A stretch of 64,000 nt of DNA from assembly GCA_030374765.1 (NCBI GenBank), contig JARGXX010000092.1, forward strand, positions 62,001-126,000. The letters are read 5' to 3'. The first letter of the stretch is position 1. Each line of letters starts with the position of its first letter. A program made the position numbers and the translations under genes. This DNA is from Agarophyton chilense. Taxonomy: Eukaryota; Rhodophyta; Florideophyceae; Gracilariales; Gracilariaceae. The notes beneath the pieces were generated by a model. The model did no database searches. It saw only the letters and a program-made list of their open reading frames with translations, and was not told the origin of the DNA. Shown here one piece after another: positions 6,317 through 63,212 of the stretch.

Positions 6317-7835
6317 ATGGTATAATTCGGCAGAGCAGCAGGTTGTGTTATCTAAAAATCCAAGCGCGTTATCTTAGAGGGAGTTTACTTCGATGTACAC
6401 AAGCACCGCTCGGGGGTAGGTTGGTCTCTTACGTAAACGTCCGGAATATTTTTACTACGACTACGGACCTCGAACGTCTATCATTTCATATGCGTTGAAT
6501 TCGATCGCCAACAGATACTCGATTCCGTGGAGCAGTGTCCACTACGTCTTCGTGAAGAATCCCTGAAGTGCTGCGTCGGTAATCCTTGATAGTTCCGACG
6601 TATACCTGAAATGAGGAAGGTAAAAGAGGTCAAGATGGGAAGGGGAGAAAGCAAGAATGGGTAGGCTAAGAGCCATAAGAAGCGCATGTGGAGCATCAAA
6701 TAGTCCTATGGTATGAATTTAGATACCCGTTGGGCGTCATGGAATACATCTTGTTATAAAAGACCCGATACTAGTACATCGTTAACTCTCCTATGCATGA
6801 ACAAGTTGTGCTTATTCAATTCATAAGCTAGATTACTGTGAGATAGCGCTGAAAGGCGTGTAAGTTTCCTAGAGGCGCGATCCGTGCGGAGTCCGTAAGC
6901 AGGGCGTGCGTGTCACACGAGGCCGGTCGGGGAACGGTGACGCGTGGAGACGAGCGCCAGCACCGGGCGGTCGTAGGGAGACTAGGCGGTTGGGAACGTC
7001 AGGCGCGATCGAGGTACGCGCGAAGAGTCCAAACGGCTTGTAAACCTGTAGATATCCCGTGCGGAGTAACGCTTCAGGTCTGCTTTAGAAACGATACTTA
7101 GACTAGGACGGTGGTGCTTACCCTTTAATGTTTGGAGCGTGGCGGGGAGCGGAGGTGCATAAGTAGTGTGCACCTCCAAGCTGCAACCCGCATTACAGTC
7201 CGTGGTGGCGCCTGCACCCACGTGGCGGAAATATCACGGGGTGGGGGACGCCAACTACCTACAACTATGCTACGTGTTAACCCACTGTACATGTCCGTCC
7301 GGTGTGCCATCTTCGCACACGTGTGCGCCCAGGCCACTTGCACTCAGTCCTGACCACGCCCTTCTTACCTGACAACCCGCTCGGATTCACTATACTACAC
7401 ACCGCCCTCCTAGAGCGCGCGACGTCCTCGGAGCGCCAATATCCTAGGCGGTATCTGGTTGAGCTCGCACCGAGCGGACACGGCGTTACGTTCGCGGACC
7501 GACACGAAACGCGCTAGAAGCGACCGGTCGCGTTATACGGGCCCGTTCGGAGATCCGCATTGTGCCACAGCCGCTCGGAAAGGCCTGTAATAGCGCAGCC
7601 GTCCGGGAGTAGACGTTATATCGCAGCCGTTCGGTAGTGCTCGTCAAACCGCGCCCGCCGGCGAGCGGTCGTCGGTGGTGTATTTGAGCACGTCTATGTC
7701 CCGGGCGGAGTGACGGGTAGACTCCAGAGAGAACCGTTGCGGCAGTTCCAAAGAGTACGGACTCAGAGGCCGCGTGTCCGTTTGGTTCAACCATGGAGGA
7801 CAACAACAGCGCTGTCAACCGTGACCGGTGCCTTA
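6317..7835. other. Spacer between the A1/A2 inverted arms; no recognisable gene
   Basis: Composition changes near 6860 from AT-leaning to GC-rich. The short open frames here lack domain signals or coding bias. The only structure I see is a degenerate 28-bp tandem array at about 7542-7680. The last five bases (CCTTA) are probably the target duplication that once flanked A1. Confidence 0.5.
7542..7680. repeat. Degenerate 28-bp tandem repeat, about five units
   Basis: Units begin near 7542, 7570, 7598, 7626 and 7653 with a GCC(C/G)(C/T)TCGG-like core. The spacing is 27-28 bp although the rest of each unit has diverged strongly. It looks like an old minisatellite. Confidence 0.45.
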
Positions 7836-13734: not shown

Positions 13735-14648
13735 TGTAGAGCAACGCCCAGTTAGGGGATACTTGAAGATGCAACTCATAGAATGAGGATTGAACCCTCC
13801 GAGGGTTATGATTATGATCCCCTCTAAGGTGCGCTGAGGGGGCACTGTTTTCTGGTTATATTTCGCCTATAAGGGAAAATTCGGATGGCCCATGGTTGGA
13901 TTGGCCCCGTGATACACGTGGCTTAGTTTTGGCACCGATTTTCGGATATTTGTTAGAATGTTGGATTTTTGGGCCCTGGCAGTGGGATCTCCACGTGTAT
14001 GGCCCTGAGCAGGTGTGCACTACTGTAGAGATTAGTTAGTGGGCCCTACTTAGGGAGGCGAGATCTGACAGTCCGAGCTCAGAGTAAATGGTAACCAAGG
14101 TTGGTCTTCGATACCTTTAGAGGTTCTTCGTCGCCATCGTTTCGGCCTTACAACCCGGAACGGGCTCTGATTAGCAACGCCTGCGTAGGGACACGACTCC
14201 ACTTGGAGAGTGCCCACGTTTGGGTTCCGTGCAACCACCCCCTTTGGACCGCTCAGACGACCTGCGTGCACGATACCCCGTGAGGGTTCTGCTTACTTGT
14301 TGCGTGCTTTTTGTGTTTCCTTTCGAGGACAGGTTTTCGCCCCTGTATTGGGTTTCTTTTGTTGTTTCGCCCCTTTTCTGGTTCTCGGTTCCGGTGCCTG
14401 TTAGTGCCCAACCCTCGCCCCGTTTTTCCACTTCGCCGGATTTTCCCCCATTCTTTGAGATACCCATACGCATTCCCGATCCAACGGTTTCTACCCCTCA
14501 CCTCTGTCGGTACTGCCGGAATCCCCCGTGGGAGTTACACCCCACACTACGGGTGGAACGGAGGGATCTGTCTCTGAGTCTGCCTCCCCCAGGGAGCAAG
14601 GCTTCGAACACCTTGAGAGCACTTCCAGTCGCCGGGTTTTGCTCCACA
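13735..14648 (+). repeat. 3' LTR of A2 (LTR family 1)
   Basis: 914 bp, TGTAGAGC to GCTCCACA. Followed by GTCAT (14649-14653), the reverse complement of the ATGAC next to the A1 LTR. Confidence 0.95.
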
Positions 14649-15272
14649 GTCATGTTTCAATTTAAAATGAATTTCTCGGTTCCATACACTCTGGTCACTT
14701 CGAGTGTTAGCTAAGACGTCGCCGGTAACCGAATGAAAATGGATTGGATGTGAGTCGTAATTCTGTTCATCTTGATTCTGTGCGTAATATTGAGGCCCAT
14801 CATAGCGACGTATATTGTTTCTTCTTCGTAACAAAGTGTTCGTACGGATGAAAATAACAAACTCAATGCAACACTTTTGAGAATTAGTGCTATCTTCGTA
14901 TATACCGTACCTCTGAGCAGTTACATAGTCAACCAGAAGATTCAGACGTTCAAGGCACCATCTGAGGACATTAATAATTCCAAGACTGGCAAGTTGTGAT
15001 GCACGAAGAAGTATACCATCTCCATCGAAGTGCTCAAGAAGATGCCGTTCGCACCAACAAGTGTCTGCTCTACTAATCTGTAGGACCTTTTCCATGTTCC
15101 ATTTCTCTGCAAGGCATTCAATAAGATGACCGTATTGGTTTGAAAAATATCTTTCCTTCAAACGATTAATCAATAGGTTGTGTAGTAAAGAATCTCTAGC
15201 TTGATCGGCCATAGTTGGAGGAGCATGGCGCTGATTCTTGGACCCGGTTGCCTGATCACGGCGTTTATTCAT
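14649..15272 (-). pseudogene. 5' part of a host ORF interrupted by element A2
   Basis: The minus strand reads open from upstream of 15347 to the A2 LTR at 14649. The first in-frame ATG is at 15272, and the frame runs on into LTR codons. The visible protein has a helical stretch (LLRASQLASLGIINVLRWCLERLN) that resembles a degenerate ankyrin-type helix pair, then a Gln/Tyr-rich tail. At its break the last bases are ATGAC. Joined there to 6038-6316, the frame continues to a stop. The retrotransposon insertion cut it, and a later inversion carried off the 3' end. Function unknown. Confidence 0.5.
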
Positions 15273-15347
15273 CACATAGCGGTTAAATAAGCGATGGACT
15301 TGTTTTGCAACAACTGTCGGCAATATCACATGGTGAGACCATTTCAC

Positions 15348-43868: not shown

Positions 43869-45493
43869 ATGCGGGACACCGCGCTTACATTGATTACAAA
43901 GAGAGTGCTGACTGATTCAACGGCTTACTACCCCAGCACTCATGAAGAGTCTATGCATGCTCCGGATGCAAAGAACTGGGTTCAATCAACGGAAGGAGAG
44001 ATGGAAAACATGAAGCAGCGTGGAGTATGGAAACTCGTCCCACCTCCGGCAAACTGCATTCCAATTGACAACCGATAGATAATCTTCAAGAAGCGTGATG
44101 AAAACAGTCAATTGACCCGGTACACGGCTGGTTTGGTCGCGCGCGGTTTCAACTAGCGAAAGGGAATGGACTATGGGGAGTTGTTTGCGCCAGTAGCCAA
44201 GAATGAAATCATCGTATCTCTACTATCCATGGCAGTAGAAAAAGATCTTCTCATGGTACAGTTTGACGTCGGAACTGCATTACGTTACAGCGATCTAGAA
44301 TAGGAGTTGTACAAGACGCAGTCCAAAAGGGTTTGTCACCCAGAGCAAAGAAGGTCGTGCACTACGTTTGATGAAGGCAGTCTATGGCACAAAACAAACG
44401 TCATGTGCCTATAGAAAGAATTTTATTTCTGTGATGGACCAAATCGTATGTACTCAATCACAAAACGATTCGAGTTTGTTTTTCTATGGCAAAGGATCGA
44501 GAAGTGTTTGTATAGTGATTTATGTAGATGATGGTTTGGTAACCGTGAAAGAAAGAAGTGAAATTCAGCAGTCCACGAAGATGTTGCAAACTTTCATGAA
44601 AGTAAGAATTACTGAAACCCCCAAGACGTTTCTTGGTGTGAGTATCCAACGCGAGTCTAAGAAGAACCAGATTTACATTCATGACAAACCCATGATCTTG
44701 AAGCTCTTGAAACGCTTTAGAATGTCTCATGAGGCCGATTTCTACATCCCTTTGCAACAATATGACTTGCGGGAGACGATAAAAAGGAGGAAAAGGCCTT
44801 CTCTACAGGAAACTAGTCGGATCAATGATGCCCTTGGCCAACACAGTTCGATCTGATATTTCAATTTCTGTTTCCTACTTGGCGCGTTTTATGCTGTTTT
44901 ATAATCGTGAGCACTGAAATGCAGCGAAAAGTATGTTGAAGTCCTTGAAGAATACAGTTGATGCATATACTGTCTACAAGAAGGGCAAAGGCGTACTGGT
45001 ATGATACTCAGATGTGGATTTTGCCAGTGATTGTTCAGACCACAAGTAGACTAGTGGTTACAGTTTCACGTTTTGTGGGGGAGCCATTGTATGGCGTTCG
45101 AAGAAACAAACTCTTTTTGAGCAGTTTACGCTTGATGCCGAGTATGTTGCGATGTCATTTGAAGTGCGTAAAAGTTTAATGATACGAAGACTTTTTGCTG
45201 ATGTTTATATCGTGGTAGGAATGCTTTTGACCATCTTTCGTGATAACGAGAGAATGATGAAATCCAGCAAGGAGGAAACCATCAACGAAACGAGAAAACA
45301 TATCGACGTAAAGTATCATTTTGGGCGCAAGGCTGTGCAGGATGCCTGCTTTCGTTTGATGCATTTGAAGCCTGCCCAAATGAGTGCTGATGTTTTTACC
45401 AAAGCGCTACCAAAAGAAAAACACATGGTAATGTGTAACCTGATGGGCATGATAGTAAGAAGGCTGGAACGAGAGGAAGTGTTGGAGAATTAA
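43869..45493 (+). pseudogene. RT and RNase H relics of copia element C
   Basis: RT begins with NWVQSTEGEMENM, passes several stops (for example 44076-44078), keeps LMKAVYGTKQTSCAY and an intact catalytic IYVDDGLV near 44518-44541. RNase H remnants end at KHIDVKYHFGR and SADVFTKALPKEKH, as in copia, and the last codons enter the 3' LTR. Confidence 0.8.
45471..45479 (+). other. Polypurine tract of element C
   Basis: GAGAGGAAG directly precedes TGTTGG of the 3' LTR. Confidence 0.7.
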
Positions 45494-45714
45494 AACTTAC
45501 AATCGGACAAAAACGGTTACATCTTTTAAGACCGGTATCGGAACAGTGGCGTAAATTTTGTAACCAAAACAATAGAAACTAGGGCACTTTTAAATAGCCT
45601 GTGTCCAGTGCTTTGAAGGCGGAGGATAGTTGGGCTGCCTGTCAAAGGAAGCCTGATCTACAAACAGTAAAACCTGGGATCTATTTAGATCGGTAGAACC
45701 TTGAATAAGAAACA
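45480..45714 (+). repeat. 3' LTR of copia element C
   Basis: TGTTGGAGAATT to GAAACA, 235 bp, diverged from the 5' LTR. Confidence 0.75.
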
Positions 45715-47778
45715 GAATTGGAGGCGGTGCAACAAAAAAATGCAAGTCCCTCTATTTCTTTGTCCCAGAGCCATTTCAACGTCATCCGGCGCAATGCGTC
45801 TTGAAACCGTTGAGAAATATTAGACATTTGTATTTAAGCTCGGTGTGTGGAAGAGTGCTTTCATAACAAATACGACGGGGAGAAGGGCATGCGGCTGCTC
45901 GCTGCGTACGCAGCAGGTGCTGATCCTGTACTGATCCCTCGGCTTGCATGAGCTAGCTGCTTTCATGATCTCAGAGCACCTTCGTCAGATTGTTGCCACG
46001 CAAAAGCGCTTTCTTCGTTACATATGCCATACGTCCATGAAACATCTGCAACTCTGTCATCCTAAATCTTTCTCAAAGTGCTCCTTCAGTCGCAAAGCAG
46101 TGCTCAAAAAAAAAAGTTATTGAGGATGCCTTTCTGTTACCCTACAGACCGCAGTGTCTGAGTAAGCAGTCTGAAACGTACATGCTCCATGATAACATTG
46201 TTCGTTTTAATTGAAAGCTTGAGAACCACATTAAGTGTATTGAAATCGACAGCGAGGGGGAGACGCCAAAAGGCTCTTGCCTGACCCATTGGCTTTTTTC
46301 TTTGTTTGCCGGCGATCGCCCTGCGATAAATTTCCCAGATCCGCATACCTTCCCTATAGCGGTAGTTGGAGTTTTGGAGTCGTTTGGGATTCCAACAGTT
46401 CAAAACTAAACTTCTCATCCTGCAAAGTTCTTTCTAATTTTCTACGTGCAACGCATTGCATCGTTCAATGCCGATCCAGACCCCGCTCAAGCGTAGACGT
46501 AAAAAAAGAGACTCGAAATCAGCCAAGATACGCACAGATGTAGTGTTAAAACATCTCCAACCCACGCCCTATTTCGTATTATTTTATGATAGAGCAAAAT
46601 TTGCGACCCTCTCTCATCAGTTTCTTCCTATTGGCTACTAATTGAATGGAATAGAAGACAATTTTCTGTAACGGAGGCCTCGATAGACGCAGACCTCCTG
46701 CTATTCTACTTTATAGAATTTGCACCGAATGCGATACCATTGCCTAAGTTTTGGTCCTATAAATCCCAAACAGCCGCTAGCCTAACCAAGCATAATTCCG
46801 CACCAAGTTTTAACTCCATCAGTCCAAACCATAAAGTGCTGTAGACTGCTCTTGAAGAGCATTCTATGGTACTATGTTGTTTACTGGTAGTGTATTTACA
46901 CTGTGCGAACCGCACTTTTGTTTGGGTTTTTATCGTTTGCTTTTGGATTTTATTCAAATAAATAACAAAAAATGTCTTCTATTGCTTATAAACGGAAGAA
47001 GAAATTTTTTTTTATCTTGCTGTGCCCATGGTGCCGTTTGGGCAAAGCACTACTGCTAACTAAAACATTTCAATGACACAATGAGATTTACCGAGCATAT
47101 GAACTGACGTTGGACCAGGAAAACGTACACAAATTCACAAAAAGATAGCGTTGATAACTGGACAGTACAGTGTCGTCTTAATTAGATCTATCAGTCCGAT
47201 CTAAACATTTTTCATCACCCTTTAAATTCAAGAGACGCTTTACCCCATCCAGACCTATTTCACCACTTTCTTGAACTCGATGCTGTGCTAAAAGTTTACA
47301 TGGACTTCCGTGCTCCGTTTCCAGTAACATATTGTAAAGCACAAAACAAAACAAATCTGCGTTTCTGAAAACTCTTTTTAAAACTTCTTTTATTGATCCC
47401 GCAGATCAAAACATTTGACAAAAACCAAATACGCGCATCAAAAGCTGATGAATAAAATTTCCATTGTATTCTAATGAATAAGGGTGCAGAAATGAATGAT
47501 CCATAGGAACATAATATTCACAACATGCCAGCAGAGAAGAATACCAGACTATAACAGTTAAAACCGGACACACCGCAAACGTCGAGTTCCAATAACGCCG
47601 GAGGCCGACCCATCGTAGAAGACACTAGAACTAAAATACTTGAGACTCTAGGCGGTGCTTGAATTTTACCATAGTGAAGTTGACCGACCATGAGGTGCTG
47701 AGGTTCAATTCCGGCTGTAGCGGCCATGTTTCAAGAATATTTAATACTCCGTTTACCAAGAAGTCCATACAACGCTGG
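45715..47778. other. Flank inside the inverted duplication, no gene recognised
   Basis: AT-rich with short frames. A 14-bp perfect palindrome (GCTGCGTACGCAGC) is at 45901-45914. A minus-strand 69-codon frame (47518-47727) is intact in both copies, but the copies are too similar for that to be evidence of coding. Confidence 0.55.
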
Positions 47779-50056
47779 TGCGCAAATTTTGTACAGATGA
47801 CTTACAATGAGCCTACGTAGTGAAAAAACGTGAGACTACCAATTCTGATGCAATTTGTACAATACATTTTGTTCGGGAAGAGTTTTCGGTGTAGTACAGA
47901 CTCTCTTTTAGGCTCACCGACGTTCTGTTGTTTTCTTTTAGTCTTAAAGAAGGTTAGGTTTTGTTGTTTAGTTTTATTCAAAGCAGATTAAGTACCAAGG
48001 TGCAGCCGCCAATGAGAGTACGGTTTTACAGAGGAGCCAAACGGTTCCAGGAAGGAGGAGACGGCCTCGGGACGCAGAAAAACAATCGTATTACATCTTT
48101 TGGGCTTAAGTGCGGTGATGTACTGCGTCCGCGTTAGCCAAGATTCTCATTTCCGGTCATGAACGCTCTTCATTCCGTGGGCGGTTGAATTCATCTCTGT
48201 TTTCGTGCACGGTGCGCTTTTTGTTGGAATGAGAGACACTATGGATCCACTTTGGTTTCGAGCGCCGTGATTGGGCATTGTTCGTCAAATGGTTCGCTTA
48301 AAAAGAAGGATCGTGTAGTTATTCTGAGGGTGTGGCAGCCGAGTCACTGAGACTAGATTACCCGCGATGGGGCCTATTTCATCTTAAAGCTTTTTAGATG
48401 GGTTTAATCTTAAACAGGCATACAGCGCCGTCGCCTCTGCGATCCCGTCATTTATTCTTGTCTCCCTTCAGCACTTCCCGAGTCCTCGCTGCCACGCCTT
48501 CGTACATCGTTAGATGGTCTCTTTGCATCGTAGTCCTCAACAGATTTCTCTTGAATATGGACGACCTCCTCTCATCGCTGTCCTTTCCTTGGGTCTGAAT
48601 CATGCTTTCCCATTTCACTGCTTTCGGAGTTGCAATCTCCAATTCCAATCGCCCCCTCGCAGAGGGATCCAAGTGGCGAGGACACCTGCTTCCACGCATA
48701 CAGGGGCGACCTCTCGTTCCAAATCTTCGACTCCCGACAGGCGGGACATATTGCTGAAGCCCAAATGGGAAGTCGGTGCGGTCACCGGAGCTATATTGTC
48801 TACTACCTCATTGCGCTGTAGTACTTTTGATCCCGGGGGTGGTTCCGCGACTTTTCAGCGCTCCTGCTCTTCTTACATCAACCTCGGTCAACCTTCTTCA
48901 AGCCAGTTGCGGACTACCGTAGCACCCACCCCCTTCGTGGGTGCTTACGGTTTGAGCGGCCAGTGAAGGAAGCCCAACAGCTATTTTCAATCACACGAGG
49001 AATCCCAACCGGGTTCCCTTCAGTGAGCGCTATGTTGCTATCATGCATCTCACCGGCGAGTAGGTCGCCTTACGGAGGGTTTACCGCGCCGTGATAAGTG
49101 TTCAGACGGCATCCGTATGCCAGGGTTTTGGTGCAATGCCACGAGGTAAACAGACCACAAAAATGTTCGAATCTTCCTCTCACGTAGAGAAATCAGCGAA
49201 CAGAGCCTCTTTAGCTGAATACGACTAAGTCGTAATGTATGCTCGAGGCTAAACTTCACGAAAAGCAGCGATAGTTTGAAAGAAGCTGTAGAAATATCAA
49301 AACTTGTGTAGGGGATCATTTGAGAAGTTCAGTGGTTTTAATGAAATAGTGACGGCAACAATATGATGTTGAAATCATGACTCTACGAGTGCAACATTAC
49401 AACAACTTACGAAAAGGGGAACATAAAACCACGAGAGTGGGGGTAGAATAAAGCAAAAATAAGAAAGGACAAAAAGGGGCAAAAAAACCCAATTCAGGAA
49501 TGAAAAATCACAAACTGTGCGTATATTGAGCATACAACAGTATCGGTGAAACTCCTGTTGAAGCAAGGGGGAGAGAAAGATTGTAGGCTGCACCGACTTC
49601 CATTTGGGAGGCGTGAGTACTCGAGAAGGCGAACAATTCAAGACCCAAGAACCCTTCGTTGAGGAGTTTACTTGCTGTTTAGGTGGAGTAGATGACGGCC
49701 TATGCATTATTGGCTACTGTAGTAAATCTTCTTATATACATGTAAAATCTTAGAATAAATATCTAAGGTATCCAGTAATGCTAGTAACCACTTGAGCCAC
49801 AGCTCAGGCTTACGTGTACAGCGAATGCACATGCTGCATAAATGGGCAATGATGCTACTCCTAAGGCGGTCTTTTTCATCACTCTCACATCCGCCAAAAA
49901 CTCCGAATTCTTAGGAACCCATTTACCAGGGGCTTACAAACTATATCCCCCTTCTTAGACGCGAATCCAAGGGTGTCACGGTGAGCCAAGCGACGGAGAA
50001 TGGGCATAAGCATGTGCTCGGCGGGCTGGCTTCTTCCCGGTCTCACCGGTGTACAC
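47779..50056. other. Non-coding or unrecognised region left of element D
   Basis: The longest frame (48514-48966, 150 codons, +) has unremarkable composition and no domain I know. At 49430-49510 the minus strand has a faint likeness to the 3' half of the family-1 LTR, possibly a relic. A long hairpin lies at 48916-48950. Confidence 0.4.
48916..48950. repeat. Hairpin with a 14-15 bp stem
   Basis: ACCGTAGCACCCAC and GTGGGTGCTTACGGT pair with a single one-base bulge around a short C-rich loop. No gene end is known here, so its role is unclear. Confidence 0.6.
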
Positions 50057-50262
50057 TGTGCAATACAGGATTCCCACCTGGCACAGTTCCGCCGGCGCTG
50101 CATTCCGAAACTCACTCTTGCTTCACCCCGAGACACTGTGGACAGAGGAGCAAGAAAGGACACCTGGTGCCCGTTCCACCTTCCTCGGTTCCACCGCGCG
50201 TTGCGAGTGCATACTAAACACCAGACCAACAGCCCTCCCGCTCTTCGTACGACTGCTTTCCA
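50057..50262 (+). repeat. 5' LTR of element D
   Basis: 206 bp, TGTG to CCA, aligning with 56794-56999 at roughly 85% by eye. Confidence 0.8.
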
Positions 50263-50278
50263 TAGTTATGGTCCCAGC
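50263..50278 (+). other. Degenerate half-tRNA-iMet primer-binding site of element D
   Basis: TAGTTATGGTCCCAGC directly follows the LTR and differs at only a few positions from the element C site GGTTATGGGCCCAGC, so the same anticodon-arm priming is likely. Confidence 0.6.
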
Positions 50279-51479
50279 GGCAGAAGCTGATATGTCTTTT
50301 AATCCGACAGACCCGCTAAAGTTTGATCCGACCAAGGATATAAAAAAATGGCGCTGCAAAGTCTGTCGATGGGTGAATACTATTTCTACCGCTGCCAAGT
50401 AGGGCACCGATCGTCGTTACCAAACAATATTTGCGACTCTAGGTCTACAGCTGTACTACAGAGCTTTACCTAGTGCTCAGAAATCCGTGGTCGACGAAGC
50501 CCAAGAAAAAGGAATTGTTGATTACAAGCAAGAGGACCAAGTGAAAGCGGTAGGCAAAATTGTTGAACTTGTCACAGTCGATCCTCCAATTGCTGTTGTT
50601 TCTCGTTTGATTTCTTCCTTCAATCGTGTTACAAACTGCCGTCGTAACAAGGATGAGCCTCTGGCTAGCTTCCTATCACGTTTCCGCGGCTTTGCTGCCG
50701 ATCATCTCATGCACGGTGGACCCTCATCCTTGTCTCAGGTTGGAGAAGTTCTGGCAATAAATCTAATCAACAATGCATCTTTGAGGGACGAGACGTTGAC
50801 CAATGCCAAACTACAACTCATCTCTCTCGCCGAAGCTCACATGAGAAGTGGAAGTTATACTGGGGATACCCGGCACCACATGAATCTTGTGAAGTTTCAG
50901 GAGTCCGTAAAAAACCTCCGTGAAATGCTATCGAGGCCTCAACTTTAGATTTCGAGGCGCGATAATCACAATATGAAGAAGGCAAAGCTTTTGGTAACCA
51001 AGAGAAGGATCAATGAAGCGGTCGTTGAGTTCGAGGGACATCTTCCAGACCATCACTCAAAGACCAGCCCAACTCCTTCTATCAACAAGCTTCTTCAACC
51101 CTCCCGCAGATGCCGTCTAAACTTAGATGACGCCGTTACAGTCATACCGAATCTTTCTTTTACCCTTTCGAGCTCTGCTGCTCACTACACAAGGGAAGAC
51201 CTTGAAAACATCGTGACATCTCTTCGGACAGCGTGGACGACTTCTGCTCAGTTGATCTCTTCGATGGCTCGTACTAAGCAGACGGTTCGCAAATCTGTTG
51301 GCGGAAAACCCCCAAAGGGCCAACTTGCAGGCAAAGCGGGGAGAATTACGAGCGAAGCATATCTTAACCAGTATCTAGGCAAGAATATCGTGAAACTTCT
51401 TTGTTCCGAACCACAGCGTGGCGTGCGGAAAATCTACGCAATCACATTCCAAGTTAGCAAAAAACCTGGTGCAATTTAG
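50268..51479 (+). pseudogene. Gag-frame ORF of element D with two TAG stops
   Basis: One frame runs from an ATG at 50268 to the TAG at 51477-51479, broken only by TAG codons at 50400-50402 and 50946-50948. The N-terminal half looks like copia Gag: WRCKVCRWVNTIST, then IFATLGLQLYYRALP, then a helical region with PLASFLSRFRGFA and SLAEAHMRSG. The C-terminal part after the second TAG is not Gag-like to my eye and contains the histone H3-tail-like segment. The frame has no CCHC; a CCHC of copia type lies on the other strand at the right end of the element. Confidence 0.7.
51264..51344 (+). other. Histone H3 N-terminal-tail-like segment
   Basis: Starting at an ATG in the gag frame, the translation begins ARTKQTVRKSVGGK and continues with a QLAGKAGR stretch. 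Against the universal H3 tail, 19 of the first 26 residues are identical, including R2, K4, R8, K9, S10, K14, K23 and R26. Changed are A7, T11, A15, R17, K18, T22 and A25. After residue 26 the similarity ends completely, so there is no histone fold. It may be a captured H3 5' end or a selected mimic. Confidence 0.75.
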
Positions 51480-52614
51480 CGAAAACGAAGCCATTATCTT
51501 GCTTGGGCGCAAGATAACGCATTTCATTCGGCTATTTCGAGGCACTTGGTTTGGGGAGTTGATTCTATTTCGCTTGGGCCTTACATAGGCCTTGAATGAC
51601 GACGAAGATCCCGATATGGCTTTTGAACGCAACGACTGGATGATAAAGAAGGTGTGGTTGTCACGAGGAGGTCGGGGTGAGATTAAGGACCAATTCTATG
51701 CTTTGGAGCAAGGCACGAGCGTCGTATGCCGCATAGATATGCAAACTTTCCGAATCGAGTATAGACAGGCAGTCGGAGGTGATGCAACGAGAAGTAGGGT
51801 GACATATGGTTGCGAAGGAGCCGAAGGAACCTTTCACTGGGGTGGCAAGGATCGGTACGAGACGATCAAGAGCATTCTTGCTACTTGCAGCGCACGGCCA
51901 GATCAAATGCTCACCGTGCATCAACCCGAAGCGCGCTCGCCGTCTCCTCGCATCCAAAGTTTCCATCTCCGTCATTCCTCTGTGCAGTTTCGCGACGAGA
52001 CATTTCTATGCCTTGAAGCTATTTTAAGTAATGCATTGGCGCTCACCATTGGAACCGAGAAGTCTGCAGAGTGTTGGGAGAATCTCATGGATCGGGTTAG
52101 GAAGAACGCAGACGATAATGAGGTATATCTGAACGCCATTACAGGTCTTGGGTTTGATGATGTTATTGAGCTTAAGCATTGGAACCGTAAGGCGCAAAGG
52201 GAGGTTCGAGGGAAGTTTCAGGACCTCAAAGATATTCAGGGGTTTGTGAAGGAAAGGATCTGTGTTGTTAGCCTCGAGTATCTTCGTGATGAGACTTGAC
52301 ACCGAAAAGAAAACTTTGATTTGGATGACTTTCTCGATAGCGGAAAAGTATTCCTTGCTAGTCTTCAGGCGAATGGCCGATACCTGCATGCAATTTGCAT
52401 AGATGGAGAGTGCAACGTGATAATTGATCCAGTGGAGAAGTATCACTTGGATCTCACGCAGGTTGCCCTTTAGTTCTGTATAGGATCGGACCGTTCTTTC
52501 AATCAAATTGCAGAATGTCGCGTAGTGCGCTTGCTCCCAGAGAGGAAGGATGGGAAACGCACTCGCCGCGGGAAGAAACGTCGTCACCAAGAAGGTTCTT
52601 CAAACAGGGTTTGA
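51478..52614 (+). pseudogene. Unknown degenerate gene between gag and the inverted pol of D
   Basis: After the gag-frame stop another frame reads SENEAIILLGRK, passes a TAG (51586-51588), runs 235 codons from 51592, then continues past a TGA (52297-52299) and a TAG (52471-52473) to end with a very basic tail. The readable protein includes GFDDVIELKHWNR. Its last part, GRYLHAICIDG followed by IIDP, recalls the His-plus-Asp end of papain-fold peptidases such as OTU or Ulp1; that is a weak impression. Whether it belongs with the H3-like segment upstream as one former gene is open. Confidence 0.4.
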
Positions 52615-52634
52615 AATCTTTGCCATAATACATC

Positions 52635-53345
52635 CTAAGCCTTAGAGTTCCATGCCCCAGGATGGTGGCCGATAGTAGATGTGATACATTTGCTGAGTAT
52701 TCCTTGAACCATAGCTTGGTTAAATTGAGTAAATAAATGATGATTGCCCTTTTTTAATGCGTCGACTAAGTTGAGACTTCCCGCTATCCAACGCATGGAG
52801 GATATGTCTCCAGCTTCGAAGAAGTGACGGAGGCGCGACACGGTGAGCCGCAATCGGTAGTCTCGGCATTCGTGAAGGGTAGTAATCGTTGAGTACAAAA
52901 CAAATGAGTCGACGTGAAGGACGAGCCAACCGAAATCCAATGCACGTACTTTCATGAATTCCCTAAGTAGTATGGATCTGTCTGCGGATTCTGCTGCCGC
53001 AAGAATTACAGCACCAATTGAACTAAAGGATATGCGTCCTTGCTTCGCGCTATGCCAGTCGACGGTGTGATAAGAAACGTTTTCACCTTGGGAGAAGGCG
53101 ATGCCACTGATGTATCCAGTTTGACCGTAGGATGATTTTCCAGTGCTGGCATCAGAGAACGTCACTATGTGGCAAGCGTTCATGTCATCCGAATCCATCG
53201 CGGATTTTGGAGCCATGTACTTCACGACCGGACGCAGCTTAAAGACGAGGTTGAGGATCTGGTTTTCCGGCAGAAGATGCCTAACGCGCATCTCTGGGAC
53301 CAGCTGCTGCATGAAGCCGGCAGCGTACGCGGCTTGAGGCAGCAC
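52635..53345 (-). pseudogene. RNase H of element D
   Basis: Copia-type RNase H: VTFSDAS with the first catalytic Asp, then YISGIAF, a Glu-containing helix ESADRSILLREF and the spacing toward VLHVDSF. The frame is open for 236 codons, preceded by the end of RT in another frame. Confidence 0.75.
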
Positions 53346-53387
53346 ACCATGGCCGAGGTAGTTGAGTTTTCCAGCAACAGACTTGAT

Positions 53388-54140
53388 TTATCGGACTTCT
53401 TTTTGGGTGCATAGATACTCGGACTGCTTCCTCCTATCCCTCGAGATCGAAATGGGAGCGAGCTTTTCCATAAGCACTGCCATGGAGATCTTGATCGAGA
53501 AGTATTCATATTGCCGAATCCAAAGGCGGCTGAAGATAATCTCGTTCTCAGAAAGTGCTCTGCCAACCTTGAAGCGAGCTGAGACAGCCTTGGAGAATTT
53601 GTTCATCTCACTCTTTGATCCAGCAAGGAGAAGATCTTCCACCAATTTGGCCACGAGTAGAGATATACATCCATGGTCGTCCGACAATATGAACATCTAT
53701 GGCATACCAGGGACAGTACGGAATCCGTAGTCGCACAACCATTCCTCGATGCATAGCTGCCAGAGACGACCGAACTCTACTAGGCCATATGCTGGCTTGA
53801 GTAGCTTCCATACTTCGTCTAATAACTGTGTCCATCCCTTTGGAGGCCGCATGTATATATCTCGTTTGAGGTCGCCTGATTGCAGATACGCTCTAGAAAT
53901 GTCAATGCTTCCAAGGGTGAGGTGTAGTAAAGTTTCGAGGGAAAGCAGAAGTCTGATGCAGGTGAATTGAGCCTTAGAGGAGTCAGATCGATTGTTATCC
54001 TTTTGGGAATCCCGATTTCCATGTAGTATCAGACGGCACTTGAGCTTGAGCTTACCACTCTCTCCATCGAACTGAAGAAGTGATGGGAGGATATGATATT
54101 TGATTTTCGCGGGAGTCCTTTGATGAAGATCGGCTTGCAT
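53388..54140 (-). pseudogene. Reverse transcriptase of element D
   Basis: Two frames. The first shows KLKCRLILHGNRD, GSIDISRAYLQSG and RDIYMRPPKGW, the fingers and palm motifs of copia RT. The second carries the active-site stretch AKLVEDLLLAGS, where a catalytic VDD-like box has become VED. Inactive. Confidence 0.75.
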
Positions 54141-55921
54141 GCCTCGGCTTCAGAGTAGTTTCTCTTTTCTGCTTCGATGGCCTTGTCGATTACCCATCGC
54201 GGGGCGAACTGTAGCTTAGCTTCTGTGGCTGGTTGGTCTCCAATGATCTTCTTGATCTGCTGGAGAATTCTTTGCTCCGAAGGCAATAGATTTTCGCCAA
54301 TTGTAGGGAACCTAAGCGAGGTGTCACCAACATCTCTGCAGAGTTGAGGGTTCCTGACATCCATTGAGGGTGCGTCCACAGCCGTTGTGTCTTCCTTCGA
54401 CGCGAAGAAGGATAAAGAGAACGAATGCAGAGACCACAAGCTTGGTTCGTCCGATATGCGTGGGTCGAAACTCAAAAGGTCTTCTATGCTCTGCACAGGT
54501 AAGTCTGTGATTTCTTCATCTTCTTCTTCTTGGGCGTTAGTGTCCGGGAAGGACGTGTATCCAAGCTCGTGTTTGTCCAGTTCCTGTGGAAGGGATGAAC
54601 GTGAGACTAACCTTATGTCCTCGTAGGCGATCTGATGCTTCGGTCCCTGGATTTTTTTGCTCGGAGAGACCGATAATATATGGTCAGTAGTCGTGACCAC
54701 GAAAGCCTTGTACCAGGCACCATGTTTTCCAACTCTCTTAAAGACATATACCGGAATGGTTGGTGCCGGAAGGTCTTGTGATAAAGGATACGATGGCTTG
54801 GTACGAAGTAAGGTGTGCACGGCACGCCTGGAAACTTGTTCGTTGTAGGAAGAAAGGAGCTTCTCTGGTAGCATCTGCTTGGGTAACCCAGAAACAGAAG
54901 GATTGTAGCCGTGAACAAGCTCGAAGTTGCTGACTGACTTGTTACCATACAGCACATTCTTCAGGAATGTGGATTTGGAGAGGATCTCAAAGTCCGTGCG
55001 ATACACTTGACGAGTTTCCATCGGATTAGGTTCGTCGAGAAGGAGCGTTTGGACAAATGTGCGGATTGTCTCGTTGCTCGATTCAACGCTTCCAATTTTG
55101 CTGTGGCGTCGAGCAGGCCGTGGTTCGAATGAAATCTGATTCTCGGCACACAACCGCTGAATAGAGTCGTTATTGAACTCTGAGTCTCCCGATATTTTTC
55201 ATGGAGGCCCAAAGACATCAAACCAATGAACGACAATCATGCAAGCGGTATCAGTCATATCCCTTGAAATCATCAAGACAGTAACGGAGAGACCAGTTGA
55301 TAATTCCTTCATATGCAGAATTGGGAGGTTTCCAAACTCGCGTATGAATAGGGAATCCACCTGAAGGTGCTCGTTGAACTCACTCAGTATCCTCTTGAGT
55401 GATATCTTTCGAGAGTGTAATTGGCGGCCAGACCTTTTGCATGAAGTGCAAGAATTGTAGGCCTGTTCGAGCTCACCAGCAAGTGTTCGATTTAGTATCC
55501 CGCCTCGACTGCAAAGCTTTTTCATGTCCTTGGTGGAGAGGTGGGACTGACAGTGAAGCTTTGTGGCGAAGCGGCGGGCATGTGTCTGATCCATGTCGTC
55601 CTTTCCAGAGAATTTGGCGATCGGATTAGGATTCCTAGAGAGAAAGGAAGAATGAGAAGAGAAGAAGGATTTGAACGACTTCATTATCGCAGGAACGACG
55701 AATAAGTGTGGTCGGCGGTCAATTTCTTCTCGTAGGACGTACGTTGACAGAACTGCGTCGTCCCGAGAGATTCCGACCGAAACGGGCACTACGAGCGTGT
55801 TGTCCGAATCCATGAGGTCAGAACGTGACACTATGTCGTTCCCCACTAGCAGAGGACCATCGCCTTCCGTAATGTAGCACTTAATGTCTGCTTCCACATC
55901 GTTCAGTCCTTTGATCTTCAA
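54029..55921 (-). pseudogene. Integrase with protease end and linker of element D
   Basis: The frame 55921-55199 contains a protease end (PLLVGNDIVSRSDLM), the integrase zinc region with KLHCQSHLS and CTSCKRSG, and the first catalytic Asp in LQVDSLFIRE. The next frame (55153-54029) carries the third catalytic region (GSVESSNETIRT) and a long acidic linker leading into RT. Upstream near 56060 the protease active site reads DIGCPRS in place of DTG. Confidence 0.75.
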
Positions 55922-56144
55922 CCTCCAACTTACATATACCAGTTTCAGATTTGAACATTCTGGACCAAAACCGTGAAAAAGGGGTCACAGTCGAGGTCTT
56001 TAACGTGAAATTGGATGTCCATTACGATTGATAGTGCGGCGGCAGATTCGATGCCTCCCACACTGCGGGGACAACCAATGTCAATGATGGGGTTCGGATC
56101 TCTTGTACCACTAACCACATCAGAAGGCGCCCCAACCCATGACT

Positions 56145-56780
56145 TTAGGCATGATTGCGCTTCGATGGGGCAGCGCCTGGCGTAAGATCCGCGTTAGATC
56201 CACGGCTCCGGTCTCTGGAGGCATCTTTCCTGGAATGTCTTCCTCCACGACGAGGAACTGTGGACCTACCGTCTGAGTCGTTGCGTTGGAGTTCGAACTT
56301 CCTCTTCTTTGTAAGAAATGAGGGACTTGGGCACAAGTCATTGCCCACCATGTGCTCGGTATCACCACAATCGAAACAGAAAGACGACTTTACACCTTTT
56401 CCGGCCTTAACATCGGTGCGTTTCCTCTTTGCGTTGCCGGGTTTGAAAGATACGGTTGATGCATTTCCTTCCTTCCTATTTCCCAAGCGAATTAGTACGC
56501 TCTGGTTGGATTTGGAAATCGGAAATAAGGCAGTTTGGACTTTCTGACCCTCGACTTCCACGTCAAAGGTTTTCCCCAGAGTGATGGAAGCAGTGACGTC
56601 GCGAATATGGCGTAGTGGCGCGTGCGTGGCAAATCGAGAAGAAAGAGAGAGGTAGTTGCAAATCGCTGAAGGCCCGCACAGCCCGTGAGGAAGACGCGCG
56701 AAAGAAATATCGCGTTTAGGGTCAGAAAGGTTGCCGGGCATTTGACCGCACTCCAAAAAATCTAATTTTATTGTATCGCG
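56145..56780 (-). pseudogene. Gag C-terminal part with CCHC knuckle, element D
   Basis: Minus-strand frame with a variant zinc knuckle C-x2-C-x4-H-x6-C (CFDCGDTEHMVGNDLC) and a basic Ser/Arg-rich end. The open frame runs back through the LTR to 56966, but only codons inside 56780 are element-internal. In a normal copia element this would directly follow the gag N-terminal half, which here is 5 kb away on the other strand. Confidence 0.65.
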
Positions 56781-56793: not shown

Positions 56794-56999
56794 TGTGCAA
56801 TACAAGATTGCCACCTGGTGCAATGCCGCCGGCGCTGCATACTAAAACTCACTCTTGCTCCACCCCGAGACACTGGGGACAGAGGAGCAAAAGGGGACAC
56901 CTGGTGCCCGTTCCACCTTCCTCGGTTCCATTGCGCGTTGCGAGTGCATACTAGACACCATACCAACAGCCCTCTCGCTCTGCGTAGGACTGCTTCTCA
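56794..56999 (+). repeat. 3' LTR of element D
   Basis: 206 bp, TGTGCAATACAAG to CTCA; followed by TATAC. Confidence 0.8.
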
Positions 57000-57570
57000 T
57001 ATACACACTCACTTAAGATTTCATCTCCGAAAAACAAACAATCCGACTCAACCGAACATGCGCCATTGCGATTCCTTTTACAGATCTCTTGGTCAATTCT
57101 CCCGAACTGTCAGGTATTCATTCGAATCCTCGGTCTGTTATACCACCTGCGGCGATAAAAAAACGGTGATGACGACAGTCCTAACCCTTCGCGGTTCTTT
57201 TCCGGGTTTAAACCTGTGCCCCTTCCACAAAGCTGTAGTGCGCCTGTAGCGCATAATGTTTGAGTGAAAATATGTATCCGTCTCACATGTGGCTTGCTTA
57301 TGACAACCTCTTTGGTCCGCAACCGTTCACCAGCGCTGTCAGTGGAGACATAGCCGATATGTGCGCGGCCTTGGTTTTCTGTTTTCAAGGCGACCAATCC
57401 GATATTGAACCTTCCCAATTCGTAAAGAAGTGATCATCCCGAAAGGGTCGTGTACCCTCCCGATGTAGGGTGGTTTTCGACTTCTCGATATGATACTGAT
57501 GTAATCGAATAAATACCGAGTTAACTTCTGCACTCTTCTAGCTTCTAATCCCAACTTCTAAAAGATCCGT
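57000..57570. other. Gap between element D and a gypsy relic, no gene recognised
   Basis: Short frames only on both strands, no domain signal. Confidence 0.4.
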
Positions 57571-58068: not shown

Positions 58069-59302
58069 GATTTGTAACCCCTCCTCACGTTAGGGCTCTC
58101 GTGACAGCGTCGTCGGACAGTTCGAACGCTAAGGGGTTACAGTACCTCGTCCAAAGATTTCCTCCAAGTCCTCGGTATTGCTTTTTCCCAAGGGCCAGGA
58201 ATGTGGGTGGAGCGTATCTCCTTGGGGAAACTTGGCGTTGCGAGGTACTCTGTTGGAGGTCACAACCTCACTTGGCAACGAGATAGTTCTGCCTTTTGCA
58301 TGTGAATTGTCCCTGACCGGCTTGTCCATCACGACACTGGCGGGGTCTACCTTAGTATCCTCCACCCCCTCTCCAGATGCAGCGGTAGCAGTAGCGGTAG
58401 CGGTAGGAACTCCCACCCAGCAAGGGTAAACATCATGCTGCGGCGTGAGAGATGGACACCTATGAGTAGTTTCCGATAAGAACAGCAAATCAGAGAGGTC
58501 TAGAGTAAAATTTGCCAGGAAAGAAGGACCTGCAACCACTCAAGTGGGTTTCGCTACTGAGGTGTGCCTCGAACCTCTATCTATGGTTGAGGGTTGTATA
58601 CAGACAGAAAGTGCTTCTAAGAGCGGCTGGGGGCCAATGGCAATGCGGTGCGAGAGATGCGCTCCTGACAGTCGGCAATTCTTACCACAATGGCATCGTT
58701 CTTGATAGAGTCTACCTTATATGGTCCGTCCGCAATCGGCGAAAATTTGGGGCGTTCTCACTCGGAAAGATTCCTGTATTACTTACCGATGAAGACGTAG
58801 TCTTCTGATATGATCAGTAACACCGTACTGTCTAGATTGAAGTCAAAATCACGCTTGTAGGAGGCTTTAGCACGGGCTATTGAACTGCAAGCAGCTAGAT
58901 TCAATTTGGTCAGCTTTGATTTCAACTTGTGGCAGTAATACTTCGAGGAAAAAAGCCTTCTTGCGTAGCCTGGGATTCTGATGCGATAGCGGGCAAAAGA
59001 CAGTACAAAAACCAATCGAAAGAAGTCGAAAACTTTGTACGGTGTAACTGCAAATTGTATGTGAACGCTAAAGTGTAAATAAAGTTGTGACAACGTCTGG
59101 GGTGACCGGCCATGTAAGAACGGAAAGATGCAAGTAGCGTTTGGTTAAACGGCTCGAAGTTTCCAGTACACGAAGAGATGTAAGTCGTTGTGAAGCACTT
59201 CCTATGGAGCTTCTATAATAAGAATGGTGTCAAAATAGGAAGTGTTAAGAGCATCTTTTGTCAGGTTGGCTAAATGTCAGTCACTTGTCCATAATTTGAG
59301 GT
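58069..59302. other. Probable remainder of the gypsy relic and unrecognised sequence
   Basis: A minus-strand frame (58539-58129) upstream of the chromodomain relic may be degraded integrase or linker sequence and includes a (GCTACC)n-like repeat near 58380-58410. From 58600 to 59302 I see no supported feature. Confidence 0.35.
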
Positions 59303-61366
59303 CCAGCGTTGTATGGACTTCTTGGTAGACGGAGTATTAACTATTCTTGAAACATGGCCGCTACAGCCGGAATTGAACCTCAGCACCTCATGGTCGGTCA
59401 ACTTCACTATGGTAAAATTCAAGCACCGCCTAGAGTCTCAAGTTTTTTAGTTCTAGTGTCTTCTACAATGGGTCGGCCCCCGGCGTTATTGGAACTCGAC
59501 GTTTGCGGTGTGTCCGGTTTTAACTGTTATAGTCTGGTATTCTTCTCTGCTGGCATGTTGTGAATATTATGTTCCTATGGATCATTCATTTCTGCACCCT
59601 TATTCATTAGACTACAATGGAAATTTTATTCATCAGCTTTTGATGCGCGTATTTGGTTTTTGTCAAATGTTTTGATCTGCGGGATCAATAAAAGAAGTTT
59701 TAAAAAGAGTTTTCAGAAACGCAGATTTGTTTTGTTTTGTGCTTTACAATGTGTTACTGGAAACGGAGCACGGAAGTCCATGTAAACTTTTAGCACAGCA
59801 TCGAGTTCAAGAAAGTGGTGAAATAGGTCTGGATGGGGTAAAGCGTCTCTTGAATTTAAAGGGTGATGAAAAATGTTTAGATCGGACTGATAGATCTAAT
59901 TAAGACGACACTGTACTGTCCAGTTATCAACGCTATCTTTTTGTGAATTTGTGTACGTTTTCCTGGTCCAACGTCAGTTCATATGCTCGGTAAATCTCAT
60001 TGTGTCATTGAAATGTTTTAGTTAGCAGTAGTGCTTTGCCCAAACGGCACCATGGGCACAGCAAGATAAAAAAAAATTTCTTCTTCCGTTTATAAGCAAT
60101 AGAAGACATTTTTTGTTATTTATTTGAATAAAATCCAAAAGCAAACGATAAAAACCCAAACAAAAGTGCGGTTCGCACAGTGTAAATACACTACCAGTAA
60201 ACAACATAGTACCATAGAATGCTCTTCAAGAGCAGTCTACAGCACTTTATGGTTTGGACTGATGGAGTTAAAACTTGGTGCGGAATTATGCTTGGTTAGG
60301 CTAGCGGCTGTTTGGGATTTATAGGACCAAAACTTAGGCAATGGTATCGCATTCGGTGCAAATTCTATAAAGTAGAATAGCAGGAGGTCTGCGTCTATCG
60401 AGGCCTCCGTTACAGAAAATTGTCTTCTATTCCATTCAATTAGTAGCCAATAGGAAGAAACTGATGAGAGAGGGTCGCAAATTTTGCTCTATCATAAAAT
60501 AATACGAAATAGGGCGTGGGTTGGAGATGTTTTAACACTACATCTGTGCGTATCTTGGCTGATTTCGAGTCTCTTTTTTTACGTCTACGCTTGAGCGGGG
60601 TCTGGATCGGCATTGAACGATGCAATGCGTTGCACGTAGAAAATTAGAAAGAACTTTGCAGGATGAGAAGTTTAGTTTTGAACTGTTGGAATCCCAAACG
60701 ACTCCAAAACTCCAACTACCGCTATAGGGAAGGTATGCGGATCTGGGAAATTTATCGCAGGGCGATCGCCGGCAAACAAAGAAAAAAGCCAATGGGTCAG
60801 GCAAGAGCCTTTTGGCGTCTCCCCCTCGCTGTCGATTTCAATACACTTAATGTGGTTCTCAAGCTTTCAATTAAAACGAACAATGTTATCATGGAGCATG
60901 TACGTTTCAGACTGCTTACTCAGACACTGCGGTCTGTAGGGTAACAGAAAGGCATCCTCAATAACTTTTTTTTTTGAGCACTGCTTTGCGACTGAAGGAG
61001 CACTTTGAGAAAGATTTAGGATGACAGAGTTGCAGATGTTTCATGGACGTATGGCATATGTAACGAAGAAAGCGCTTTTGCGTGGCAACAATCTGACGAA
61101 GGTGCTCTGAGATCATGAAAGCAGCTAGCTCATGCAAGCCGAGGGATCAGTACAGGATCAGCACCTGCTGCGTACGCAGCGAGCAGCCGCATGCCCTTCT
61201 CCCCGTCGTATTTGTTATGAAAGCACTCTTCCACACACCGAGCTTAAATACAAATGTCTAATATTTCTCAACGGTTTCAAGACGCATTGCGCCGGATGAC
61301 GTTGAAATGGCTCTGGGACAAAGAAATAGAGGGACTTGCATTTTTTTGTTGCACCGCCTCCAATTC

Positions 61367-61601
61367 TGTTTCTTATTCAAGGTTCTACCGATCTAAATAG
61401 ATCCCAGGTTTTACTGTTTGTAGATCAGGCTTCCTTTGACAGGCAGCCCAACTATCCTCCGCCTTCAAAGCACTGGACACAGGCTATTTAAAAGTGCCCT
61501 AGTTTCTATTGTTTTGGTTACAAAATTTACGCCACTGTTCCGATACCGGTCTTAAAAGATGTAACCGTTTTTGTCCGATTGTAAGTTTTAATTCTCCAAC
61601 A
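61367..61601 (-). repeat. 3' LTR of copia element C' (mirror copy)
   Basis: Position-by-position mirror of 45480-45714. Confidence 0.75.
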
Positions 61602-63212
61602 CTTCCTCTCGTTCCAGCCTTCTTACTATCATGCCCATCAGGTTACACATTACCATGTGTTTTTCTTTTGGTAGCGCTTTGGTAAAAACATCAGCACTCA
61701 TTTGGGCAGGCTTCAAATGCATCAAACGAAAGCAGGCATCCTGCACAGCCTTGCGCCCAAAATGATACTTTACGTCGATATGTTTTCTCGTTTCGTTGAT
61801 GGTTTCCTCCTTGCTGGATTTCATCATTCTCTCGTTATCACGAAAGATGGTCAAAAGCATTCCTACCACGATATAAACATCAGCAAAAAGTCTTCGTATC
61901 ATTAAACTTTTACGCACTTCAAATGACATCGCAACATACTCGGCATCAAGCGTAAACTGCTCAAAAAGAGTTTGTTTCTTCGAACGCCATACAATGGCTC
62001 CCCCACAAAACGTGAAACTGTAACCACTAGTCTACTTGTGGTCTGAACAATCACTGGCAAAATCCACATCTGAGTATCATACCAGTACGCCTTTGCCCTT
62101 CTTGTAGACAGTATATGCATCAACTGTATTCTTCAAGGACTTCAACATACTTTTCGCTGCATTTCAGTGCTCACGATTATAAAACAGCATAAAACGCGCC
62201 AAGTAGGAAACAGAAATTGAAATATCAGATCGAACTGTGTAGGCCAAGGGCATCATTGATCCGACTAGTTTCCTGTAGAGAAGGCCTTTTCCTCCTTTTT
62301 ATCGTCTCCCGCAAGTCATATTGTTGCAAAGGGATGTAGAAATCGGCCTCATGAGACATTCTAAAGCGTTTCAAGAGCTTCAAGATCATGGGTTTGTCAT
62401 GAATGTAAATCTGGTTCTTCTTAGACTCGCGTTGGATACTCACACCAAGAAACGTCTTGGGGGTTTCAGTAATTCTTACTTTCATGAAAGTTTGCAACAT
62501 CTTCGTGGACTGCTGAATTTCACTTCTTTCTTTCACGGTTACCAAACCATCATCTACATAAATCACTATACAAACACTTCTCGATCCTTTGCCATAGAAA
62601 AACAAACTCGAATCGTTTTGTGATTGAGTACATACGATTTGGTCCATCACAGAAATAAAATTCTTTCTATAGGCACATGACGTTTGTTTTGTGCCATAGA
62701 CTGCCTTCATCAAACGTAGTGCACGACCTTCTTTGCTCTGGGTGACAAACCCTTTTGGACTGCGTCTTGTACAACTCCTATTCTAGATCGCTGTAACGTA
62801 ATGCAGTTCCGACGTCAAACTGTACCATGAGAAGATCTTTTTCTACTGCCATGGATAGTAGAGATACGATGATTTCATTCTTGGCTACTGGCGCAAACAA
62901 CTCCCCATAGTCCATTCCCTTTCGCTAGTTGAAACCGCGCGCGACCAAACCAGCCGTGTACCGGGTCAATTGACTGTTTTCATCACGCTTCTTGAAGATT
63001 ATCTATCGGTTGTCAATTGGAATGCAGTTTGCCGGAGGTGGGACGAGTTTCCATACTCCACGCTGCTTCATGTTTTCCATCTCTCCTTCCGTTGATTGAA
63101 CCCAGTTCTTTGCATCCGGAGCATGCATAGACTCTTCATGAGTGCTGGGGTAGTAAGCCGTTGAATCAGTCAGCACTCTCTTTGTAATCAATGTAAGCGC
63201 GGTGTCCCGCAT
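61588..63212 (-). pseudogene. RT and RNase H relics of copia element C'
   Basis: Same broken reading frames as at 43869-45493, including the intact IYVDDGLV motif and the same stops, showing that decay preceded the duplication. Confidence 0.8.

Follow-up and report, generated by a model that had tools for sequence, protein, structure and literature searches.

An antisense accessory protein with a histone H3-like N-terminus in a Ty1/copia retrotransposon family of the red alga Agarophyton chilense

A family of Ty1/copia retrotransposons in the red alga Agarophyton chilense carries an antisense accessory gene whose predicted protein begins with a sequence resembling the N-terminal tail of histone H3. 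One copy lies in a 64,000-nucleotide stretch of contig JARGXX010000092.1, the whole of which is called the window here (coordinates below refer to it). With a probability of roughly 0.4, we propose that the start of this protein is an H3-tail mimic at a free N-terminus, captured long ago from a host H3 gene, which would be bound or modified by H3K4/K9 readers or writers and thereby serve as a decoy or tether.

The window sequence at 51264-51344 (+) translates to MARTKQTVRKSVGGKPPKGQLAGKAGR. Our recount agrees with the preliminary description of this locus, in which 19 of the 26 residues after the Met were equated with the H3 N-terminus, with K4, K9, S10, K14, and K23 retained and the likeness ending at R26. 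The H3 tail used for this comparison is also that of the host's own H3 genes. A 377-codon open frame in another copy (L009, start MARTEQTARKSVGGKTPRRQLAGKAAR) matched H3 chains in PDB across residues 1-30 with an E-value of about 1e-5, which identifies an H3 N-terminal tail in the accessory protein; past residue 30 no H3 similarity was found, and the frame had no Pfam match, so no histone fold was detected. When a 41-residue H3 query was searched against the host genome, it retrieved the family (best E = 7.8e-7; window copy E = 2.6e-5). In addition, when the window peptide was shuffled 20,000 times with its composition preserved, its H3 identity was never reached. The PDB match, the shuffles, and the genome search rule out a chance resemblance. 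The features of the window copy are listed below.

50057..50264, + strand: left-end terminal-repeat piece (direct repeat, 89% identical to 56794-57001)
50265..51212, + strand: gag-side region ahead of the breakpoint (label by position; ORFs 50049-50402 and 50487-50948; no Pfam match; copies elsewhere)
51213..56552, no strand assigned: internal segment inverted relative to other copies (junctions in other copies; right end approximate, 56550-56554)
51264..51344, + strand: H3-tail-like peptide, predicted accessory protein N-terminus (translation, 19/26 H3 residues, family alignment)
51264..51479, + strand: first open piece of the accessory ORF, from the tail Met to the first stop (within ORF 50973-51479)
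51592..52299, + strand: longest of the later open pieces in this accessory ORF (ORF list; protein matches with stops at G000:C92:113457-114395)
52635..53345, - strand: RNase H end of pol, adjoining the accessory ORF (by position; ORF; Pfam match sub-threshold)
53697..54140, - strand: Ty1/copia reverse transcriptase (PF07727 RVT_2, E = 5.2e-14)
54029..55921, - strand: further pol ORFs (54029-55153 and 55199-55921), integrase/protease region by position only (no Pfam match above cut-off)
56794..57001, + strand: right-end terminal-repeat piece (direct repeat; adjoins the accessory-ORF end in copy L010)

The copia-type reverse transcriptase and the direct terminal repeats, which are 89% identical over 208 bp, assign the element to Ty1/copia; this level of identity also suggests an old insertion. 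ORFs are present at the place expected for an integrase ahead of the reverse transcriptase, and Pfam gave no integrase match there. As the upstream ORFs have no Pfam match, the label "gag" rests on position and on a zinc-knuckle-like motif seen by eye. One of the pol ORFs (54029-55153, minus strand) has a weak Tudor-like match (PF18336, E = 0.002) under the curated cut-off. The retroelement region is flanked by an inverted repeat of 2736 nt, 99% complementary, at 45081-47816 and 59265-62000.

The peptide had originally been placed in a gag-frame ORF. It does share its frame with the upstream ORF in the window copy, but 51212/51213 is an inversion breakpoint, and the stretch of ORF 50973-51479 before 51213 is upstream sequence placed there by the inversion. 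Homology with other copies starts at 51213-51219 in nearly all of 40 loci (later in L029, L035, and L040). From 51213 it is continuous into the RNase H region in other copies, and in many loci it runs on through the accessory ORF into the minus-strand RNase H end of pol. Elsewhere in the genome, the sequence ending at window base 51212 leads into the opposite strand at approximately 56554; of 42 gag-side match rows, 34 adjoin such a stretch within 40 bases. Beyond the break, the sequence from 56551 onward is joined to 51213 in L010 and in three loci of the gag-side search. Judged by these junctions, the segment from 51213 to approximately 56552 is inverted in the window copy, either as a genuine inversion or as an assembly error, and this is why the peptide seems joined to gag.

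Strand counts at the gag-side matches agree with this. Among 40 such matches (2 of the 42 rows were left out as second pieces, and 46 of 111 accessory-ORF rows were used), the accessory ORF was found on the opposite strand within 7 kb in 21 and within 7-30 kb in 8 more; 10 had no accessory ORF in reach, and a single one, the window copy, had it on the same strand. Together with the inversion junctions, these counts rule out that the peptide belongs to gag; it opens an antisense accessory protein instead, seen here in a rearranged copy. The usual order of the family, as reconstructed from the copies, is LTR, gag, pol, antisense accessory gene, LTR. The accessory gene of the window copy is disrupted by stops and frame changes, as the stops noted earlier had indicated, and no complete intact copy of the family was seen among the copies examined.

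To describe the family, the source genome was searched with the DNA of positions 51200-51500, which gave at least 40 matches of 68-100% identity (44 candidates, 40 scored). All 40 fetched loci matched the ORF in tblastn, and 38 of them covered the tail Met, L029 and L040 being the exceptions. The preliminary description had named two outcomes that would speak against it, namely a segment confined to this copy that aligns in its DNA to a host H3 gene as a one-off insertion, or absence from every other family member. Neither was found; the alignment shows the tail to be family-wide and refutes such an insertion in the window copy. The codon alignment took in 39 of the 40 loci (L039 dropped out), and the closest copies retain 21/26 H3 residues. 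Once five near-identical rows were removed, 33 rows had 25 or more tail codons; of these, 8 were nearer to H3 than the window copy (20-21/26), 6 including the window copy were equal at 19, and 19 were lower.

Several H3 residues are retained in most copies: A1 in 30/33 rows, K4 and Q5 each in 29/33, K9 in 28/33, S10 in 23/33, K14 in 23/34, and K23 in 28/34. Position 14 is Q in 7/34 rows. T11 is found in 1/33 rows, and K18 and T22 in 0/34, these three positions being mostly V or D, R, and G, respectively; K27 is absent from the tail. The divergent copy L087 has MGRTKQTARKSTG, which matches H3 at S10-T11-G12. The tail stands at the very beginning of the protein, the place it has in H3. The accessory gene is thus predicted to encode a protein of at least 377 residues, with an H3-tail N-terminus followed by a body without known relatives. 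For the 377-aa frame no fold could be assigned by Pfam or by PDB profiles. Outside the source genome, a search of about 5.8 billion proteins gave no homologue of the H3-tail protein at E ≤ 0.01, nor did it yield a transcript of this family.

Selection was analyzed on a tree of 32 copies by comparing inner-branch with terminal-branch changes. In the ORF frame, nonsynonymous and synonymous changes numbered 499/350 on inner branches and 1695/690 on terminal branches (OR 0.58, P = 9.2e-11); the shifted frames gave ORs of 1.27 and 1.20, and the 51-bp leader an OR of 1.01. The accessory protein was under protein-level selection on inner branches. A comparison of the tail segment with its flanks, proposed in the preliminary description, gave a divided answer: the body (residues 28-377) is selected (OR 0.57, P = 1.4e-10), but the 27 tail codons alone are not significant (OR 0.72, P = 0.34).

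Within the protein, amino acid changes on inner and terminal branches were 8:68 for residues 0-10 versus 464:1530 for residues 28-377 (P = 0.008), where the former counts include changes to stops and the latter exclude them (with stops 495:1631, a similar ratio). Synonymous changes lean likewise (8:24 vs. 329:619, P = 0.34). Of 367 sliding blocks, 12 were as low as or lower than residues 0-10, that block included. Residues 0-10 carry the fewest inner-branch changes within the tail (P = 0.08 vs. residues 11-26). No inner-branch amino acid change was observed at M, A1, R2, K4, Q5, K9, G12, Q19, L20, K23, A24, and A25. Fitted across the entire tree, a codon model was of no help: its omega of 0.92 for the tail mixes changes before and after insertion. 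These results indicate that the protein is selected and that the tail is conserved, though not uniquely.

With regard to the origin of the tail, the family was aligned with three host H3 genes, as the preliminary description had advised. Codon positions 1 and 2 agree at 0.74 and 0.77, but position 3 only at 0.30-0.39; codons are identical at 0.28-0.40 of identical residues (expected 0.30), and the flanks agree with the host genes at 0.17-0.25. The resemblance to host H3 is therefore one of amino acids, no match at the DNA level having been found in this alignment, which points to either a mimic or a capture made long ago. That this family took up a host H3 gene recently is rejected by the third codon positions. 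Host H3 genes share only 11-14/26 codons among themselves, so the codon comparison alone cannot separate old capture from convergence. The alternative first offered for this peptide, a captured H3 gene end or a mimic, stands: the tail is family-wide, the protein is selected, and agreement with host H3 is confined to the amino acid level.

A second repeat family (L047, L048, L049, L050, L058, and L060), distinct from the one with the accessory ORF, carries a truncated H3 gene start with a frame change and stops. This start is 81% identical in DNA to the host H3 gene L041 over 143 bp, and L047 and L049 share more than 3 kb. By its DNA identity, this second family is a case of recent H3 gene capture.

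The 377-aa protein also matched a distant family in the same genome (family B; 23% identity over 337 positions), which has open frames of 471 codons. Its arginine-rich start, MAVTRQRVRAQRTRRVPRSHVRGLAMRVS, aligns gap-free with the 377-aa protein from residue 1 and in fixed register equals H3 at 9 of 29 residues, a value reached by 0.035% of 20,000 shuffles. At the one locus examined (C4), a family B gene stands antisense next to a Ty3/gypsy-type pol whose domains are RVT_1, RNase H, and integrase, suggesting that related accessory genes accompany both copia-type and gypsy-type elements. This arrangement of the paralogous antisense gene was seen in L061:397-1671 (+) and L076. Five family B copies (L074 and loci on C96, C88, C77, C100, and C71) match residues 1-129 and 323-424 in a 276-codon frame and have a common internal in-frame deletion. 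A database search with family B yielded one protein, P0002 (98% identical), from the EukProt transcriptome set, and this was also the only match of a family profile search. As the P0002 ORF starts at residue 26 of family B, this transcript, from the sole relative known to be expressed, starts beyond the tail and does not show it.

The C-terminal part of the protein recurs in further families, where Cys, His, and Asp motifs could be lined up by eye; L066 and L067, the two that were read N-terminally, start differently. The motifs might correspond to a papain-like triad, but copy L009 has Tyr at the His place; the C-terminal part had no Pfam match, and the best PDB profile match had E = 0.77. 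The window contains a weak match to the C-terminal part of this protein group at 6428-6691 (+). An ORF at 14547-15347 (-) resembles family C copies such as L066 by eye and has no P0002 or Pfam match.

How might an H3-like tail function in such a protein? Removal of the initial Met from Met-Ala starts is a general rule. After an early acquisition of the tail from a host H3 gene, this removal would expose A1-R2-T3-K4 to K9-S10 as in mature H3, where H3K4/K9 readers or writers could bind or modify it; the accessory protein, as a decoy or tether, might then lessen silencing of the element or be placed on chromatin. The mimic reading is favored by the family-wide tail with K4, K9, and K23 mostly retained, by the selected frame and the third positions diverged from host H3, by the few inner-branch amino acid changes in residues 0-10, by the position of the tail exactly at the protein start, and by a paralogue start that is weaker but H3-like. 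Against it are the tail alone without significant selection, the synonymous changes and sliding blocks that temper the signal in residues 0-10, the failure to find an intact copy or a transcript of the family, the loss of T11, K18, and T22, and the expressed relative that starts after the tail. Candidate partners appear to exist, since domain matches indicate H3 readers of the chromodomain and PHD kinds in the genome: chromodomain matches number at least 150, with 150 scored out of 1935 candidates, and PHD matches 9, many of them probably in mobile elements. Chromodomains had been claimed elsewhere in the window, and among the 150 matches listed none lies inside it. Phycobilisome matches in the source genome fall almost entirely on one contig (14/15 on C39), as fits a red algal host.

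The likeliest roles of the tail may be binding or titrating H3K4/K9 readers and writers, or use of the histone import path. It is rather unlikely that the tail is a nuclear import signal only, with its basic, importin-bound character mattering and not its being read as H3. The importin Kap123 binds the H3 tail through K14 and K23, both of which import needs (PMC5677370), and nuclear localization or signals are described for the accessory proteins of Grande and PvRetro13 among antisense LTR-element genes (PMC7264820); the arginine-rich paralogue start and the lack of inner-branch amino acid change at K23 fit such a signal as well. However, K14Q strongly lowered H3 import (PMC5677370) and Q stands at position 14 in 7/34 rows, and the fewest inner-branch tail changes are in residues 0-10, though only at P = 0.08 versus residues 11-26. 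Position 14 and the first eleven residues together lean toward reader binding, without deciding the question. A more far-reaching form of the mimic reading is unlikely: an antisense-encoded decoy with a true H3 tail would compete with nucleosomes for H3K4/K9 readers and methyltransferases and weaken silencing, being old and of common descent in copia- and gypsy-associated genes.

Selection clear on the body and not on the tail, along with the other N-termini of L066 and L067, would fit a relic, in which an H3 fragment persists at the protein start without any H3-type function; yet synonymous sites are saturated relative to host H3 although most residues are retained, and residues 0-10 are among the less changed blocks, so that we consider a relic unlikely. 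Had the tail converged on H3 from a basic N-terminus such as the paralogue's, which aligns gap-free from residue 1 with 9/29 places equal to H3, the lack of a DNA-level H3 trace would be explained. Such convergence is very unlikely in view of identities at places without obvious need (e.g., G12, A21, A24, and A25) and of the S10-T11-G12-like sequence of L087. A recent H3 gene fragment does occur in the second repeat family, but nothing was found in favor of a chance likeness, or of a one-off host H3 insertion in the window copy, and the probability of either is negligible given the PDB match, the shuffles, the H3 query search, the third-position divergence, and the family-wide presence.

Antisense additional ORFs between pol and the 3' LTR, termed aORF-3R, are known from maize Grande, rice RIRE2, Silene Retand, and PvRetro13 (PMC7264820, PMC11963269). 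The accessory ORF resembles them in lying between pol and the 3' LTR on the strand opposite to gag-pol, in occurring in many copies, across which its in-frame signal (P = 9.2e-11) shows it to be kept as a protein, and in that the function of aORF-3R is unknown. In contrast, those genes belong to plant elements, the named ones mostly Ty3/gypsy, whereas the present one has an H3-tail start and belongs to a Ty1/copia element of a red alga; the main texts of PMC7264820 and PMC11963269 make no mention of an H3 tail for aORF-3R (the word "histone" has no occurrence in either). In orchid Ty3/gypsy elements, which have taken up an m6A RNA demethylase domain (PMC9289625), a family of LTR elements has likewise fixed a protein part of host type. 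There, however, that part is an enzyme domain, whereas here it is a tail only, on the antisense strand.

In the open-licence literature we found no case of a transposon protein with an H3 tail or of H3-tail mimicry in retrotransposons. Histone mimics include influenza NS1 and G9a, and the stretches of such mimics are short and internal or C-terminal. In the protein predicted here, 26 residues open the chain just as the tail does in H3. Mimics of the EZHIP type (PMC6513997) likewise are non-histone proteins that contain a short stretch resembling a histone.

Antisense accessory genes of LTR retrotransposons are already known and their function is not; the H3-like start offers a concrete, testable one, namely the engagement of H3 readers, writers, or importers. 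If this is true, a transposon could turn a histone tail on the chromatin machinery by which it is controlled, or have the tail work alongside that machinery.
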